Below are positions 1-22,641 of a stretch of 22,641 nt of DNA, piece by piece. This stretch comes from a virus: positions 1 through 22,641 of the IMG/VR virus record IMGVR_UViG_3300030012_003671; one strand, written 5' to 3'. The notes under the pieces were generated by a model. That model saw nothing but the letters and a program-made list of their open reading frames with translations, made no database searches and was not told where the DNA came from. Within the stretch, counting starts at the first letter, position 1, and the number at the start of each line of letters is the position of its first letter. The translations under genes and the position numbers were made by a program.

Positions 1-195
1 ATAGATTCCAGGATTATTTCCAACATTATAGTGAAAATGAAATTCACGGAACGGATCTCCATCCGCTGTTGGTAGGATGCGGACCATTTGATCGCCCGCT
101 TTTGGCTTCCACATTGTGGAAGATTTACCGTTTTGTTTTCCGCCATTTTTAGATGCATTAAGTTTGGCGCGCATCGCTTCTAGATTAATAGCCAT
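1..195 (-). CDS. Single-stranded DNA-binding protein, gp32-like (N-terminal part only)
   Basis: This is the first 65 residues of a protein that runs off the low-coordinate edge. It begins MAINLEAMRAKLNASKNG, which resembles the N-terminal basic region of T4 gp32 used for cooperative binding, followed after a Gly/Lys/Asn linker by MWKPKAGDQMVRILPT, matching the conserved start of the gp32 OB-fold core (a W/K-rich strand then V-R-I-L-P). In the T4 family this protein coats single-stranded DNA at replication and recombination forks and represses its own translation. An AGGAG site at 204-208 sits 8 bases before the ATG at 195. A consensus sigma70-type promoter lies at 292-320 and a terminator at 332-360 isolates the gene from the upstream unit, so it appears to be an independently transcribed gene. 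The zinc-binding and acidic C-terminal parts lie outside the window. The identification is by motif recognition, not by alignment. Confidence 0.8.
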   Translation of the reverse strand, partial: MAINLEAMRAKLNASKNGGKQNGKSSTMWKPKAGDQMVRILPTADGDPFREFHFHYNVGNNPGIY

Positions 196-984: not shown

Positions 985-1013
985 AATATAACATCGCTAT
1001 CAGATGTTGTCAA
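985..1013 (-). promoter_or_regulatory. Sigma70-type promoter of the two small membrane-peptide genes
   Basis: On the minus strand TTGACA (1008-1013), 17-base spacer, TATATT (985-990), with TGT before the -10. It overlaps the stop-codon end of the VOC-fold gene (stop at 1010). It is the sister of the 292-320 promoter. Confidence 0.75.
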
Positions 1014-1324
1014 GTAGAATGGCTAACTTTTTTAGGATATTTTATTAATTCATATATGTTTCCGAAAGGATCACGCTTGTAGGCAGAGTGGGTACCATCT
1101 CTGTGTGGCTTTATTTTATCACCCTCTTCAAAGTCATCCACTTCAAATGCAATATGTGGGGGATGCTGGGATTTAATAACAAAGGCAAGCTTTACATTGC
1201 TGAACTCAATGAAGGACCAAGTATCATCCACGTATAACATTTTTGCTCCAAAATTCTGGCAGTACCAAATAGCTGCTTCTCTGGGGTCATCCACCTGTAG
1301 TGCAACATGATCTAAAGTTTTCAT
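1010..1324 (-). CDS. VOC-superfamily (glyoxalase/dioxygenase-fold) protein
   Basis: A 104-residue protein with the paired beta-alpha-beta-beta-beta layout of the vicinal oxygen chelate fold. It opens MKTLDHVALQVDDP and closes DPFGNIYELIKYP, both typical of the family. The four usual metal-ligand positions appear occupied: His6 in the first strand, Glu40 (SFIEF), His57 (PPHIAFEVDD) and Glu92 (YELIKYP). That would allow divalent-metal chemistry, as in glyoxalase I, fosfomycin- or glutathione-type transferases or ring-cleaving dioxygenases, but the substrate cannot be read from sequence. At 104 residues it is a single-domain version that would act as a dimer. The start overlaps AGGTGA from the end of the upstream 55-residue gene, suggesting translational coupling. 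It is a probable host-derived auxiliary gene. Confidence 0.85.
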   Translation of the reverse strand: MKTLDHVALQVDDPREAAIWYCQNFGAKMLYVDDTWSFIEFSNVKLAFVIKSQHPPHIAFEVDDFEEGDKIKPHRDGTHSAYKRDPFGNIYELIKYPKKVSHST

Positions 1325-1528: not shown

Positions 1529-1723
1529 TTAATCACCCGAATCAAGATCTTTCTCTATCTCTGCTATTATTCTTTTCATTTGTAATATTAGCTCAGAGAC
1601 TTCAAAAATCTTTTTCACCGCCTCTTCTTTATAGTCTGGATTATAAATTAAAAAATCCAAAAGCTTCTCTTCGGCGCCCAATAATCTTTTTAATTCTTTT
1701 TTAAGTTTAGTTAATTGATCCAT
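1529..1723 (-). CDS. Small coiled-coil protein (64 aa)
   Basis: A highly charged 64-residue protein (MDQLTKLKKELKRLL..., ending IIAEIEKDLDSGD) that looks helical throughout, with leucine/isoleucine heptads in residues 1-20 and 36-58 and a short break around NPDY. The first 13 bases overlap the end of the tubulin-like gene, and an AGGAAG site lies in that gene's last codons, so the two are probably translated together. No family is recognised. Its position suggests a possible partner or regulator of the tubulin-like protein, which is inference from gene order only. Confidence 0.65.
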   Translation of the reverse strand: MDQLTKLKKELKRLLGAEEKLLDFLIYNPDYKEEAVKKIFEVSELILQMKRIIAEIEKDLDSGD

Positions 1724-2532
1724 TGGACTTCCTGTGTATAGTGCGTATAGTGTTTTACATAGTAATGGTTATCGGGCTCAGAATTACTCCATATGGCGAA
1801 AGACGTTTCTCTGCCTAAGTCTTTGTTTGTGCGAACAACTTGATGACAGTTGGGGACAACTTCTTCATCATTATCTAAATCTTCTTGGTCAATATTGAAA
1901 TAATATTGTGACTCTGTGATATTTTCTAGATTGTAAAATATTTTATCGTCTCCACTAAGTAAGCTCCATCCAATGGTTGATATTCTTGATATTTCCTTGG
2001 GTGTGTGAAACTTTCCAAAATCTTGATCAACATTATCACAATAATTTAAATTTTGAAAGAGTGAATAAATATAATAATTTACTTTTTTATAATATTCTTT
2101 AATTGGGCCTGCACCAGTTAAGTCTAATAAAATCTTATTGGATAGCATTATCATCTCTTTTATCTTGCCCGATCTAGTAAACTCTTGTAGGACACCGAAG
2201 TGGACTCGATGGCGCAATCTCTCATCCTTAGATGCGAATTCAAGGTCTGGTTCAATATATACAACAGTCATTTGGTGGGCCTGTAGTGCCTCTAGAACGC
2301 GTAGAGTTACTCCGGCAACCTTACCGGAGCCACAAACAAATAAGAGGCCTTTATCGTGGGATTTCAAGCCCCTAGATGATATCTTAATTGGGTGTTCATC
2401 ATAGGCCTCAACAGATTCCTTTGAATCTAGACCATCGCCGTCGTCAAAAATTAAGATTTTATAATTTTTTGAATGAGGTCTAAAAAGTTCTGCTATACTC
2501 TTACCTGCCTGTCCAATACCTACTATTAACAT
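1711..2532 (-). CDS. Divergent tubulin/FtsZ-superfamily protein (candidate)
   Basis: A 273-residue protein from the ATG at 2532. It begins MLIVGIGQAGKSIAELF, like the first nucleotide-binding loop of FtsZ (V-G-x-G-x-A-G). Residues 63-77 (LLFVCGSGKVAGVTL) sit where the tubulin signature GGGTGTG would be, but in degenerate form. Residues 89-124 (VVYIEPDLEFASKDERLRHR... then MIMLSNKIL) follow the FtsZ order of a beta strand, P-F-x-F-E-x-x-x-R and a helix, then a strand ending in N-D-K-L. A tyrosine-rich helix (136-154) could be the central H7 helix. The C-terminal part is not recognised and is shorter than usual. The upstream gene stops one base before this ATG and GGTGA precedes the start; an in-frame ATG-less extension upstream would only read into the preceding gene. 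A simple Rossmann-type nucleotide-binding protein is the main alternative. Confidence 0.55.
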   Translation of the reverse strand: MLIVGIGQAGKSIAELFRPHSKNYKILIFDDGDGLDSKESVEAYDEHPIKISSRGLKSHDKGLLFVCGSGKVAGVTLRVLEALQAHQMTVVYIEPDLEFASKDERLRHRVHFGVLQEFTRSGKIKEMIMLSNKILLDLTGAGPIKEYYKKVNYYIYSLFQNLNYCDNVDQDFGKFHTPKEISRISTIGWSLLSGDDKIFYNLENITESQYYFNIDQEDLDNDEEVVPNCHQVVRTNKDLGRETSFAIWSNSEPDNHYYVKHYTHYTQEVQWIN

Positions 2533-2533
2533 T

Positions 2534-2890
2534 TTATTCACCATTAATTCTACAAATTCCCATGACCTCTCGCCACGTTTCACCAGATCTTAGATTTTTT
2601 TCCCAGAGTATTTCCCCTCTATACTTATCATAACATAGTTCTGAATTTTCATGTTCCACCCAACAGGTTTTTCCTTGTTTTTTTATTGTTTTTATGATTG
2701 GATGAATATCCCTGTTAATTTCAAATGAATTATCGTAAACAATAAACTGTATTGTATTATAGCTGTAGTATGTGCGTACAGATTTTGTTTCAAACTCTTG
2801 ATATCTCTCACTCCATTTTTGTTTTTTGACTGTGCAAAACTCAAAAACATCTGCGGCTTGTGCTAATGTTGCTAATAATAGTAATATCAT
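2534..2890 (-). CDS. Secreted small protein with four cysteines, function unknown
   Basis: A 118-residue protein beginning MILLLLATLAQA-ADVFEF, a short signal-peptide-like hydrophobic segment with an A-Q-A cleavage motif after residue 12, although without the usual positively charged start. The mature part has exactly four cysteines (19, 76, 86, 113), which would allow two disulfides in the periplasm, and many aromatic and basic residues. A strong AGGAGG lies five bases before the ATG at 2890. It lies directly after the polymerase gene and its stop codon almost touches the tubulin-like start. No family is recognised. Export in infected cells suggests an action on the envelope, such as superinfection exclusion or lysis control, but that is inference. 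Confidence 0.65.
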   Translation of the reverse strand: MILLLLATLAQAADVFEFCTVKKQKWSERYQEFETKSVRTYYSYNTIQFIVYDNSFEINRDIHPIIKTIKKQGKTCWVEHENSELCYDKYRGEILWEKNLRSGETWREVMGICRINGE

Positions 2891-2906: not shown

Positions 2907-4094
2907 TTACCAAGTAAATTTTTTCATTTGTCCCAAGTTTTTTCCAAGGGACACATTAACCTTAAACTTTCCTAACTTTGTATCCTCAAATATTTGCTTC
3001 AATTGAGGGATCAGTCTTTTATCGTCTCTATGTAGATCGATGATAACGCTATCATGCACAACTGCCATAACATGGGATCTTGAGTTGCTAAGGAAACGAG
3101 AAATTTTGTTAAATCTGTCGATGGTGTTGTCCGAGGAAGTCGATTGGAGAAGGTAGTTAAGTGCCTTGGAAGAGGGAGCAGCAATTGTCCGTCCAAATGG
3201 CGTTTGCACTTGTTCTTCAATATAATATCGCTCGAGAATACTTTGTCTATCATAGATTTCGGAATCGATGGTAGTTGATTCGGGATTATAGAGCCAAGCG
3301 AATAGTTTTTGTTTTGCTTTTTCGCGAGACATTTCTTGTTTAAAAACGTTTTTGATGTTCCACTCATGTATATCTTCCTCGGGTTGTTCTATATTTTGTA
3401 GTGCTAGCAGTGTTCTTACTTCCGCAGCATTAAAGTCAAGTTCTAAGAAAACATCATTATGCGGAAGAACATGGCTTTTTAATTCTTTCTTGAGATTCAA
3501 AATTGGAAATGATCCCTTTTTTGTAGTCAAGCGACCAGTCACAGTTCCAAATATATCATAGTCTATATGAATCGGCTTACCTTCAAACTGTTGATATAAA
3601 TGCTTTGCCTTATTGTCTTCGGCTGAAGCTACATATAACGCAAACATGTTTACATTGACTTGATGCTGCGATAATTTTCTAAGGTTGCCGAAAGTTTCCT
3701 TGATGAAAGAATAGTTTTTTGGCTTTTCTATATTTTCAAAGACCCAAGATGTAATTTCATTTTTTGTATCAAAGTAATGTTGCAGGTGCTTTTCTGGAAC
3801 TAACTCATAAAAACAAACATCGTCTAAATTCATGCCCGATGTCCTGAACGATTTAAAATGTGACTTCAATAACCTTTGTGCAGCACTCCACCGAACACTC
3901 AGTTCTGGTGGGCATACTTCATCAATGGCCTTTCCTCCAACCCAAAGCTGGGCATAATCGATATCAATACCATCTAAATGTTTGGACCAAGCCCAAGTCT
4001 TTGTAAGACCAGATGGAATTTTATCATATACAAACTTGTTTGGTAGATAAACACCTACGCAATCTACTTTGCTGTCCATTAATTGAAATATCAT
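2907..4094 (-). CDS. Minimal family A DNA polymerase (Pol I-like polymerase domain)
   Basis: A 395-residue protein containing the family A polymerase motifs in order. Residues 186-189 (TGRL) match the T-G-R-L/F template-contact motif. Motif A is D220-FNAA-E225-VR, keeping the catalytic Asp and the steric-gate Glu that selects deoxynucleotides. Motif B on the O-helix keeps Arg257, Lys261, Phe265 and Tyr269 with the exact R-x3-K-x3-F-x3-Y spacing, although the usual following Gly is Asn. A Q-S-T-S-S-D segment (317-322) matches Q-G-T-A-A-D. Motif C is VH-D348-S, where the usual Glu after Asp is Ser as in T7 RNA polymerase. No 3'-5' or 5'-3' exonuclease domain is present, and the gaps between motifs are shorter than in Pol I. 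T4-like phages replicate with a family B enzyme, so this is probably accessory: repair, gap filling or lesion bypass. A promoter candidate lies at 4247-4275. Confidence 0.85.
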   Translation of the reverse strand: MIFQLMDSKVDCVGVYLPNKFVYDKIPSGLTKTWAWSKHLDGIDIDYAQLWVGGKAIDEVCPPELSVRWSAAQRLLKSHFKSFRTSGMNLDDVCFYELVPEKHLQHYFDTKNEITSWVFENIEKPKNYSFIKETFGNLRKLSQHQVNVNMFALYVASAEDNKAKHLYQQFEGKPIHIDYDIFGTVTGRLTTKKGSFPILNLKKELKSHVLPHNDVFLELDFNAAEVRTLLALQNIEQPEEDIHEWNIKNVFKQEMSREKAKQKLFAWLYNPESTTIDSEIYDRQSILERYYIEEQVQTPFGRTIAAPSSKALNYLLQSTSSDNTIDRFNKISRFLSNSRSHVMAVVHDSVIIDLHRDDKRLIPQLKQIFEDTKLGKFKVNVSLGKNLGQMKKFTW

Positions 4095-15530: not shown

Positions 15531-18500
15531 TTATACGAAATCCGCACCGGTTCTAGTGATAACAAAGTCAACAACAATGAATTCAATAGCGCGGGCTGGC
15601 TTAATATAGATCTTAGCGTACATAACGTTGCGATCAATCAAATCAGCGGTTGTGGTAGTTTCATCAAGAACTAGCAAGTAATCAGTCAAACCAAATCTTG
15701 CTTGAGTTCTCGAGAGAACTGGGTTTACTTGAGCCTTAAATCTATTCCAAGTAGATTGTACATTTTGATCAAACAACAAGTTTCTAGCAACTGCGCCGAC
15801 TTCTGATTTCAAGAATAGAAGTAGTCGGCGGACGTTGATTCTATCAAGAGCAGATTGACCTGCTTGAAGTGTTTTTTGTCCAAAGATTACAACACCCTCT
15901 GCTGGGAATGTAGCGATTGGATTGATATTTACTTCATACAATCTGTCTCTCTCGCTTGAATCAAGTCTTTGTCTAGCTTGAAGAACTTTTGGTCCACGAG
16001 GTCCACCCAAAGAACCAAGTCCTCCACGATTAAATCCTGCTGGAGCAAACCATAGTTCAGAAGTAGCCTGAGATCTACCAAGAGCACCAAGAGCAGCAAC
16101 GGAAGATGGAATCCAAACAAGTTGTCCACCGTTTAAGTTATCAGCAACCTGTACAGATGGATAGAACGCACAAGCGTATGATGAGTCAAGATTTCTCTGT
16201 CTGATACTTGTTACTGCTGAACTAACAGATCCCAAAGAATCAAGATCAGTATCGCCTGAAAGTCTTTCGGCAACTGGTTTGTAGTCATTTTCAATATCGA
16301 TAATTGCGAGAACATCTTTTCTAGTCTCAGCGATAGAGATAATTCTGTCAGTAATTACAGGCTTTTTAATTCCAGGCATCAACAATAAGTTAGCTGGAAC
16401 AACCTCAGGATCCTTAACGGAGTCAAGTGCCTTATTCAGTGTATAATGAATGTAGTCTCCTCGATCATTTCTTGTTGTAGAAATGAGTCCGTCTCGAAGT
16501 GGCTCTTTTTCTGTAATATCAAACCCTTCAAATCCACCATGTAGAGGCATCAGGAACTGCCTTACATTTAGATCGAGAAGATCTCCAAAACTATTGGAAG
16601 TAGTATAAGATGTAGTACCGTGAGAACCAGATGTGTAGTCAACAGTATTATTTGTAGTATTAATCACCAAATCATCCAAGGTAAAGATGAACGAGTGTTC
16701 GTAGTTGGTTGATGATGGAGAAAAGTTGTTAATATCAGCAGGAAGTCTTCTCAAATAATCAACATAATCTGGATCATTAAGAGTTGAGGTTGTTGATATT
16801 TTTGGACGAATACCATAATATGCTCGATATGGATCAGGTGCTCCACCCTCTGTTCCATCTCCGCGAAGAGCGATGGCTGGGAACAAGAATGATGCGGTGA
16901 AGTTGGTTGGACCTGCGACAAATTTACCAGCACTACCACCAGCAAAAGGCATGGAAGCGTTCCCTTTTACAAATGCTCCAGCAAAGTCATTACCATCATT
17001 TGTACCAGTAGTATTGGCTCTACTAATATTTCCGCTCGGGTTTGAAATGGTTGATGTAACAACTTGTGAAGAACCAGTAACATCAGCTTCAATAATAATT
17101 TTATCTCCGGCACCGCTATTGTCGGTATGTGTAATTGTAACACCGGTAAGCGATAAGGCATCAAGAGCAGCTTTAATGCTGGTAACAATTTCATCGTTCC
17201 TATCAGTGTTCACTTGGCTCAAGTTAATTTCCATTTCGTTATCGACTTGGAATGTTGTTTCACTTGCACCACCACCGCTTCTAAATTTAACTGTTCTGGT
17301 TGTTCCTAAAATATTGATGGCTAATTCTTCACCATTGTCTGGAACATCAGTGTTAGCAGCTCCAAAAGTAATAATAGTTTTTGCCTTGACTCCGTCTGCA
17401 CTTGTTACACCAAGCGGGTTAGCTCCCAAGGAGGAATCATGTAAAGTAAATCCTTTTGGACGAACAGGTCCTTTGAAACCAGCAGGCAAGAATCCTTGAC
17501 CACCACCATCTTCGATAAATTGTTGAATATCGACATAAATGATGTTTGATTGGTTAATGTAGTTCCCCAAGGTTCTGTAGCGACGATTAGTCTCATCCCA
17601 ATCAAGAACTTGGTCTCCAATTCTTTTTCCTAGATAATTTATATCAGATGGATTTAAATTAAGATTTGTGTATCTTTCAACAGTTTGACCATTCATATTT
17701 TTTACACAAACACTGAATGTTCCATATGGGTTGACAATAGGATTCGTTGGTTCGCGAATATCTTCAATTGCGATCATATAATCTTTCTGAATATCTTCTC
17801 CAACATGTAGAGATTTAAATTGGAACAAGTCAGTTTGTCCTTTTTCTTTTTGAGAAACAACCATACCAGAATATGCTTCAGCAGCCGCTTCTTTGTGATC
17901 TCCCCAGTTACCATCGCTATTTTCTAAAGGCAGAAGAATACCATAGACTGTACCAGCAGATGCTGTGTGTAAACCAAGATCTCTAACTTCTCTTGCGAAA
18001 GATTCGCCAAGCCAATATGTTTCGCGTTGACCGGCTGCAACGGTAAGTTCATTTACCGATTGTGGATTAGTGTTAAGAGCAGATCTAATATATTTTGAAG
18101 AGTTTCTTGAGAAATTAAATGTTTTAGTTACCGAATCACTGCCCTCGTCTGAGACGATTAATTTAAATTCACAATTATCACCAGTGCTTTTAATTAATGT
18201 GCCTGCTTGTTCTTTCTGCGCACCATCCGCTGCCGCAGCTCCAGAGAGTGCGAGAGCACCTTTGTTGGCATATATTACAGCAGCTAACGAACCAGTGCCC
18301 ATTGTATTTGCTGATGCTGAGGCGATCAAGAAAAGCCCATATGCAGAAGAGTTGGTTGCTCTGTCTGAAGTTAACGATCCACTCAATTTCCATCCTGCTT
18401 TACCTGCGTCAGTAGATGCTTGAGGGTGTTGATCACCAGCAATCCTTACAACTGTAATTGGTGAGTTTTCGGAGGCCAACCAAGATTGTGCAGCATAAGA

Positions 18501-18752
18501 CGCGTAGGTAGGACCAGTCATATTACCGTCTCTCCACATGTCCCCTTGTGCTCCTGCACCACCTGGAACAGGTAGTCCGAACACGGACACAAAGTCATCT
18601 AGGTTGCGAACTTTTACTGGCTTGTTAGCAGGCCCTTTTCTTGTTCGTCCAATAATAATTGGGCCTTCTGCTTCTCGCTCCTGAGGAATGAAGCTTTGGT
18701 CAATCTCGCGGATGTTAATTCCGGGTGAAAGAAAATCAAATTTTGTAGCCAT
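15531..18752 (-). CDS. Tail sheath protein (gp18-like, enlarged)
   Basis: A 1073-residue contractile sheath protein, large compared with T4 gp18 (659). It starts MATKFDFLSPGINIREIDQS, the S-P-G-V/I-x-x-x-E opening of sheath subunits. Residues 790-1073 are the conserved C-terminal core: LMPGIKKP, VLAIIDIENDY, SSYACAFYPSVQVAD, LVWIPSSVAALGALGR, WFAPAGFNRG, FPAEGVVIFGQKTLQ, DRINVRRLLLFLK and an AKIYIKPARAIEFIVVDFVITRTG strand. Such elements interlock subunits and contact the tube. Two middle regions look like surface insertions: about 120-230 (Ala/Gly/Ser-rich) and about 455-590, which has the I-N-I-L-G-T-T-R-T-V-K-F, K-A-A-L-D and V-T-I-T pattern of beta domains inserted in virion proteins. It starts at 18752 with an AAGGAG site and lies downstream of the neck genes. 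Confidence 0.92.
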   Translation of the reverse strand: MATKFDFLSPGINIREIDQSFIPQEREAEGPIIIGRTRKGPANKPVKVRNLDDFVSVFGLPVPGGAGAQGDMWRDGNMTGPTYASYAAQSWLASENSPITVVRIAGDQHPQASTDAGKAGWKLSGSLTSDRATNSSAYGLFLIASASANTMGTGSLAAVIYANKGALALSGAAAADGAQKEQAGTLIKSTGDNCEFKLIVSDEGSDSVTKTFNFSRNSSKYIRSALNTNPQSVNELTVAAGQRETYWLGESFAREVRDLGLHTASAGTVYGILLPLENSDGNWGDHKEAAAEAYSGMVVSQKEKGQTDLFQFKSLHVGEDIQKDYMIAIEDIREPTNPIVNPYGTFSVCVKNMNGQTVERYTNLNLNPSDINYLGKRIGDQVLDWDETNRRYRTLGNYINQSNIIYVDIQQFIEDGGGQGFLPAGFKGPVRPKGFTLHDSSLGANPLGVTSADGVKAKTIITFGAANTDVPDNGEELAINILGTTRTVKFRSGGGASETTFQVDNEMEINLSQVNTDRNDEIVTSIKAALDALSLTGVTITHTDNSGAGDKIIIEADVTGSSQVVTSTISNPSGNISRANTTGTNDGNDFAGAFVKGNASMPFAGGSAGKFVAGPTNFTASFLFPAIALRGDGTEGGAPDPYRAYYGIRPKISTTSTLNDPDYVDYLRRLPADINNFSPSSTNYEHSFIFTLDDLVINTTNNTVDYTSGSHGTTSYTTSNSFGDLLDLNVRQFLMPLHGGFEGFDITEKEPLRDGLISTTRNDRGDYIHYTLNKALDSVKDPEVVPANLLLMPGIKKPVITDRIISIAETRKDVLAIIDIENDYKPVAERLSGDTDLDSLGSVSSAVTSIRQRNLDSSYACAFYPSVQVADNLNGGQLVWIPSSVAALGALGRSQATSELWFAPAGFNRGGLGSLGGPRGPKVLQARQRLDSSERDRLYEVNINPIATFPAEGVVIFGQKTLQAGQSALDRINVRRLLLFLKSEVGAVARNLLFDQNVQSTWNRFKAQVNPVLSRTQARFGLTDYLLVLDETTTTADLIDRNVMYAKIYIKPARAIEFIVVDFVITRTGADFV

Positions 18753-21827: not shown

Positions 21828-22277
21828 TTAGCTAATTGTAGGTGCTTCATCGGCGTGAACAATACCAGTTACATACCAAGAAGTACCATCGGATACACAT
21901 TCAATCCAACTACCAAATTGCGTACCATTGTTTCTTTTGTCTAGTTTAATTTCATCAGCATTCCCACTACCATCCTCAGAAACAAAGTCAGCGGTAGTTC
22001 CATCGCTATCTTGAAAGAGCAATCCACCAATAAAATGTGTTCCTGTGTCATGGGTCTTAATCGTAAGGTGTCCACCATCCAAGTCGCACATGATAAGGAA
22101 CTTGAAATATGCTCCATCTTGTGGTGCTGGGAGATTGACTGTTCGATCTCCAGTCAAATCAGCAGCTAAAATATAAATTTCACCAGTTTCTGCTGGTTGG
22201 ATGGTCTTATCGGCATCCGCCAGAATCTCTGCTCGTTGACGACTAGCGACTCTTGCGCTTCTTGCAACTCTTGACAT
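21828..22277 (-). CDS. Small virion-type protein, tandem copy 2 (149 aa)
   Basis: A 149-residue beta-rich protein starting MSRVARSARVASRQRAEILA, a basic N-terminal helix, then a domain with DKTIQPAETGEIYIL, TVNLPAPQDGAYFKFLIMCD, HLTIKTHDTGTHFIGGLLFQD and a C-terminal SDGTSWYVTGIVH. The SDGTSWYV motif and repeated T-x-x-x-T-H-x-I-G-G-L-L strands are typical of repetitive, surface-exposed phage decoration or fibre-type domains, but no family can be named. It has an AAGGAG site before the ATG at 22277. A near copy of its coding sequence lies 520 bases upstream and includes a 42-base identical stretch. It is probably a head decoration or fibre protein. Confidence 0.7.
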   Translation of the reverse strand: MSRVARSARVASRQRAEILADADKTIQPAETGEIYILAADLTGDRTVNLPAPQDGAYFKFLIMCDLDGGHLTIKTHDTGTHFIGGLLFQDSDGTTADFVSEDGSGNADEIKLDKRNNGTQFGSWIECVSDGTSWYVTGIVHADEAPTIS

Positions 22278-22353
22278 AATTTATATCTCCTTAAATTAAA
22301 TAAATATTTTTTTACATGTTGTGTGGTCAACAACAAGTGATCCAAACAAAAAA

Positions 22354-22641
22354 TCAGCTAATTGTTGGAGCATCTTCGGAGTGAATACACCCGGTGACAT
22401 ACCAGCTAGTTCCATCAGATACACATTCAACCCAACTACCAAATTGAGTACCAGCGTTAGTGTGAATAAGTGCGATTTCATCAGCAGACCCACCATTTGG
22501 GACAAAATTAGCAGTAGTACCGGTACTTGGCTGATGTAGTAATCCACCAATAAAATGTGTTCCTGTGTCATGGGTCTTAATCTTAAATGTTCCGCCATCC
22601 AGATCACACATGATGAGAAACTTAAAGTAAGCTCCGTCTTA
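22354..22641 (-). CDS. Small virion-type protein, tandem copy 1 (3' part)
   Basis: The last part of a paralog of the 21828-22277 protein, open to the window end. It matches from DGAYFKFLIMCDLDGG to the end SDGTSWYVTGCIHSEDAPTIS, including THDTGTHFIGGLL. The frame continues upstream of the first internal ATG (22611) through DGAYFKF, so the N-terminal part is expected beyond the window. However, the last codon in the window (22639-22641) reads TAA where the paralog has CAA (Gln). Either the copy is damaged, the base is an end-of-contig error, or this copy uses the internal ATG. Confidence 0.6.

Follow-up and report, generated by a model that had tools for sequence, protein, structure and literature searches.

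The window analysed here, a 22.6-kb virus record, encodes what is predicted to be a minimal protein of tubulin fold beside the short DNA polymerase of the phage. The protein belongs to a so far unnamed family that is widespread in uncultured phages. New is the genomic setting, i.e. a tubulin-fold gene tied to a DNA polymerase: the open-access papers covered describe phage tubulins from large jumbo phages (PhuZ) and from plasmid-like phages (TubZ), which are regarded as DNA-moving filaments, and no description of a polymerase-linked tubulin-fold family was found in these papers. While the fold is well founded, the function is a proposal. We suggest that the protein binds a guanine nucleotide and acts together with the phage polymerase as a scaffold or switch, a reading we regard as evenly balanced. 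A tubulin-fold family that is locked to a polymerase and devoid of the motifs of filament dynamics would widen the known uses of this fold, and its hundreds of sequences could be used to trace the possible loss of the motor cycle in a polymerising GTPase. In addition, a conserved gene of abundant uncultured phages gains a testable role.

Fold and motifs of the protein

The gene is located at positions 1711-2532 on the minus strand, stop codon included, and comprises an intact ORF for a protein of 273 aa starting with MLIVGIGQAGKSIAELF. The ATG at 2532 is backed as the start codon by relatives starting at the same position; a GTG at 2583 marks an upstream extension of the ORF. All motifs quoted in the initial annotation are present, namely VGIGQAGKS (residues 4-12), LLFVCGSGK (63-71), EPDLEFASKDERLRHR (94-109) and SNKIL (131-135). 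The median dN/dS of 126 close pairs of family members was 0.08, indicating that the family is under purifying selection. Together with the homologous ORFs, this value argues that the ORF is no chance frame.

The initial annotation had proposed a divergent tubulin/FtsZ-like protein from such motifs and had named a Rossmann fold without helix H7 as the finding that would speak against it. AlphaFold2 with 97 relatives yielded a model with pLDDT 95 and pTM 0.92, while folding from the single sequence without relatives reached a pLDDT of 34. The model comprises a nucleotide domain, the central helix H7 (residues 149-167) and a second alpha/beta domain in the correct order, with a loop at the T4 position. 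TubZ and FtsZ were the best PDB matches in Foldseek (E ~1e-10, prob 1.00), and the best 50 matches all belonged to the tubulin superfamily. VIA-align gave Z scores of 23.2 for CetZ, 22.0 for TubZ, 21.9 for FtsZ and 20.2 for tubulin, spanning residues 1..273. The predicted structure of the window protein is that of the tubulin/FtsZ fold, H7 included.

Evidence independent of the model is weaker, yet the alignments point in the same direction. When compared with a seven-member FtsZ profile by hhalign, the family aligned over 149 columns (E 2.3e-5, probability 76%) and the register was kept through H6 and H7. Among the weak profile matches to PDB entries, FtsZ chains also ranked top, and they kept this register. 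PF00091 was matched weakly by 10 of the 97 members (best E 0.0034) and TIGR00065 (FtsZ) by a few, but the window protein itself had no PF00091 match at E 1 and did not reach the Pfam cut-off. An ordinary NAD-binding Rossmann protein, which weak Pfam matches to TrkA_N (37 of 97 members) and saccharopine dehydrogenase (22 of 97) might suggest, is extremely improbable and was rejected on the predicted structure, as the model matches tubulins across both domains with Z above 20, the best 50 Foldseek matches are uniformly tubulin-like, the window protein's own matches to these two families stay below the Pfam cut-offs, and the nucleotide-binding half is common to both folds, which accounts for the weak matches.

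Several elements of the nucleotide pocket are kept. The T1-like loop GIGQAGK (residues 5-11; 2500-2520, minus strand) is aligned with T1 of FtsZ by hhalign, and its GxGxxG pattern is present in the family: G5 and G7 are found in all 97 members, and position 10 is Gly in 65 and Ala in 32. Asn132 (2137-2139, minus strand), at the guanine-contacting Asn position of H6, is Asn in 95/97 members and is paired by hhalign with the invariant asparagine of the FtsZ PND motif. Helix H7 of the model (2032-2088, minus strand), which was aligned with FtsZ H7 by two methods, carries Asn152 at a guanine-contacting position, likewise Asn in 95/97. We take Asn132 and Asn152 to occupy the guanine-contacting positions of FtsZ and tubulin. 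Because the T1 glycines and the two asparagines are kept, a guanine nucleotide is most likely bound in the usual pocket.

Other elements are degenerate or lost. The loop at the T4 position, GSGKVAG (residues 68-74; 2311-2331, minus strand), comes after strand 61-67 and before helix 71-82 in the model. It does not hold the tubulin signature GGGTG[S/T]G: G68 alone is invariant in the 97 members, which mostly have GSGKxxG or GSSxSSN; the degeneracy noted in the initial annotation is supported. According to a mapping by secondary-structure order and profile alignment rather than by residue-by-residue superposition, no GxG of T3 is conserved in residues 32-60, a region clearly shorter than its FtsZ counterpart, and in T7 (residues 168-183) no acid exceeds about 75% of the members, whereas D209 and D212 of T7 are invariant in the FtsZ comparison set. 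The H2-S3-H3 region, which holds the T3 GxG, is lost or reduced in the family. Helices H8 and H9 are missing from the model, and there is no C-terminal tail beyond strand S10, the protein stopping a few residues past the conserved Q267. Since the T3 loop, the glycines of the signature, the acids of T7 and helix H8 have degenerated or disappeared, GTP would most likely not be hydrolysed by the normal tubulin mechanism. In PhuZ, T7 and the T3 loop help to couple assembly to hydrolysis (PMC3678025). Therefore, canonical GTPase-driven filament dynamics, with classical polymerisation-driven GTP hydrolysis, are unlikely in the window family, although an unusual filament is possible.

Near-invariant residues specific to the family are E42, L77, Q116, R120, S121, G122, R183, Y210 and Q267. 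Four of them lie in the most conserved stretch, VLQEFTRSG (residues 114-122; 2167-2193, minus strand), at the end of helix 102-121, where Q116, R120 and G122 are found in 97/97 members and S121 in 96/97. In the model, R120 and its neighbours are placed at the end of helix H5, away from the pocket, and they may constitute a partner-binding face. As the signature, T3 and T7 of the known groups were sought and found lacking, the protein should be classified as a new, divergent family within the superfamily, and not as FtsZ, TubZ, CetZ or PhuZ.

Family extent and linkage to a short DNA polymerase

Neither the window protein nor two divergent family members had a tblastn match in 50,697 phage records, and a search of IMG/VR with the single window protein sequence retrieved no relatives. 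Relatives were reached first via the neighbouring polymerase and then via alignment-based scans of IMG/VR. Homologous ORFs were obtained in 231 fetched loci, and each of the alignment-based scans, which relied on pattern matches, contained more than 590 confirmed relatives among the matches listed. Members are usually 265-290 aa long, and most are presumably of marine origin. Within 84,980 bacterial and archaeal genomes a single relative was detected, in a WOR-3 MAG (L248, CP070664.1), where it sits in an apparent phage segment that also encodes a polymerase, an SSB and RecA. Ordinary bacterial genes flank this phage replication module, and a stretch of N lies close by; the module is either the remnant of a prophage or a chimera of the assembly.

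The polymerase gene of the window (2907-4094, minus strand) encodes a short family A enzyme of 395 aa (PF00476, E 2.3e-11; PHROG DNA polymerase, E 1.6e-17). In its motif C region, VHDS stands in place of the HDE found in most polymerases of family A. Nearly all loci fetched with the polymerase have a tubulin-fold homologue just downstream, and the exceptions stop soon after the polymerase. As these loci are biased, linkage was assessed in the 125 loci that were fetched by the tubulin-fold protein alone and have enough upstream sequence: in 123 of them the polymerase is located upstream within 1.6 kb. Considering all fetched loci, the polymerase is upstream in 216, the two genes overlap or abut in 141, and a 4-nt overlap, the commonest arrangement, occurs in 97. 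The two proteins would be produced together, often via translational coupling. Within the clade to which the window belongs, the two genes are separated by a few small ORFs; in the window this is one ORF of 118 aa (2534-2890, minus strand), whose product has a signal-like N terminus. It has relatives in only 14 loci and is missing from most of the family.

The linkage extends to a replication module in the order polymerase, tubulin-fold gene, gp32 SSB, RecA/UvsX, 5'-3' exonuclease, DnaB-type helicase and ribonucleotide reductase. A gp32-like single-stranded DNA-binding protein was found in 194 loci; in the window only its start is present, cut by the window edge (1-195, minus strand; PHROG 1192, E 4.5e-8). 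Pairwise distances of the tubulin-fold protein correlated with those of the polymerase (r 0.91), gp32 (0.92) and the gene beyond the polymerase (0.83), the partial r values being 0.55 for the polymerase, 0.48 for gp32 and 0.38 for the neighbouring baseplate-side gene. This pattern fits inheritance of the genes as a unit and is no proof of contact; shared inheritance alone can explain both gene order and correlated distances. The initial annotation had recognised the fold and the unusual setting, but missed the near-invariant association with the polymerase and its module as well as the size of the family.

The module also occurs without the tubulin-fold gene. In immuto, a cultured Flavobacterium phage, the order is likewise PolA, two small genes, SSB, RecA, 5'-3' exonuclease, DnaB and RNR, but unrelated short genes occupy the place of the tubulin-fold gene, which is absent. 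Thus, this type of polymerase does not need the tubulin-fold protein. The idea that immuto genes 2 and 3 are a split or decayed copy of it was tested and rejected.

Possible roles in phage replication

The motif losses and the polymerase linkage hint at a new function of the tubulin fold in the replication of viral DNA. Most likely, the protein would serve as a nucleotide-responsive scaffold or as a polymerase accessory subunit at the phage replication site. A more specific version, in which it is a guanine-nucleotide-binding part of the viral replisome that forms no filaments and is a partner of the short family A polymerase, is tentative and rather doubtful; if true, it would give the fold a non-cytoskeletal part in DNA synthesis.

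Alternatively, the protein may, like PhuZ or TubZ, form cytoskeletal filaments that centre the replicating DNA of the phage or segregate it, though with an unusual interface. Phage tubulins are known to act in this way (PMC4244570, PMC3678025), the tubulin fold covers the whole length of the protein, and a place in a replication operon would fit DNA positioning. However, PhuZ protofilaments depend on T7, H8, T3 and an ordered C-terminal tail (PMC3678025), while in the window family the T3 region and H8 are reduced, the T7 acids are unconserved and nothing follows S10. The match to a five-member PhuZ profile was weak (hhalign E 5.9e-4, probability 29%), and chimallin was not matched in seven records, a result obtained with a single phiKZ query that divergent shells could escape. 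We consider such filaments unlikely. The initial annotation had put forward positioning of the phage or of replication foci, for which we found no evidence; the anatomy of the protein argues against a canonical dynamic filament.

It is also conceivable, with still lower probability, that the protein is strictly a processivity or fidelity subunit of the polymerase and replaces a missing T4 clamp. In five family records of 184-191 kb neither a T4 gp45 clamp nor an intact family B (gp43-type) polymerase was detected, while the control searches worked, a Straboviridae phage being positive in all three and a Kyanoviridae phage in two; this result also favours the scaffold or switch. The overlap with the polymerase gene and the small size of the polymerase (about 395 aa) would likewise suit this role. 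On the other hand, a clamp of another family could escape the search, immuto has neither a clamp match nor the tubulin-fold protein, and no DNA-tethering role is known for the tubulin fold. AAA matches were also considered as a clamp loader and rejected, the one examined being a MoxR/AAA_5-type ATPase.

Several phages block FtsZ, and an FtsZ-like fold would permit capping of FtsZ filaments. The protein might be a decoy aimed at the host, binding FtsZ and stopping cell division early in infection. Yet genes for host takeover are usually located in variable early regions, and a near-invariant place in the replication module across wide divergence is atypical for them, which renders the decoy very unlikely. 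Both filament positioning and FtsZ antagonism are less likely than a scaffold or switch acting with the polymerase.

Known tubulin-like systems and other genes of the window

Like CetZ, TubZ and FtsZ, the window family has the two-domain fold over its whole length, the T1 glycines, the asparagine at the H6 position and a polar residue at the guanine position of H7. It differs from them by an identity of only about 10-15%, by lacking GGGTG[ST]G, the T3 GxG, conserved T7 acids, H8, H9 and the tail, and by the position of its gene in a phage replication operon. With PhuZ of phiKZ-type jumbo phages it shares a phage-encoded tubulin fold, but PhuZ has a T4 loop of the GASGS type, GxGK in T3 and two invariant aspartates in T7, and it also possesses an acidic C-terminal tail (PMC3678025). 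PhuZ is mostly found in phages of 200-320 kb; the T4-type tail genes reported in the initial annotation do lie on the window, where sheath, baseplate hub and head-tail adaptor were recognised, and this setting differs from that of the PhuZ jumbo phages as it had stated. FtsZl1 and FtsZl2 are, as is the window family, divergent branches of the superfamily (PMC2875224). In the FtsZl families the GGGTG(S/T)G loop is retained, and C-terminal regions of coiled-coil or other type have been added; for FtsZl1, counterparts of T6-H7 could not be assigned with confidence, nor was any likeness to the usual C-terminal domain detected (PMC2875224). In contrast, the window family has kept the C-terminal domain, lost the signature and added nothing.

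The best viral structural match was A0A6J5RW92 in BFVD ('FtsZ Cell division GTPase', uncultured Caudovirales; E 2e-12), a protein of 452 aa with 13% identity, whose likeness to the window family is known at the level of structure. A second, canonical phage tubulin of 383 aa is encoded in the 135,976-bp record of L235 (L265:1297-2445, plus strand). It has the signature GGGGGTGSS, matches PF00091 (E 1.7e-10), lies downstream of an SMC/gp46-like gene and is 81-91% identical in 66 IMG/VR loci (L265; also L274, L275-L340). Four records carry both this tubulin and the polymerase-linked family (L235, L173, L279, L305). A constant canonical partner tubulin was rejected, as only 2 of 16 searched records have the canonical protein, and it was undetected in three family records of 184-191 kb. 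Direct descent of the window family from the canonical tubulin received no support from profile comparison.

Elsewhere in the window, a glyoxalase-fold protein of 104 aa (1010-1324, minus strand; PF00903, E 2.9e-7) is encoded in the phage operon and has a relative in only 1 fetched locus. The tail sheath (15531-18752, minus strand) comprises 1073 aa and exceeds the usual T4-type sheaths; in most cultured phages the match is confined to its C-terminal part (about 740-1072). At 21828-22640 (minus strand), two short adjoining ORFs encode a nearly repeated protein sequence, KTHDTGTHFIGGLL...GSWVECVSDGTSWYVTG, which looks like the duplication of a structural domain.
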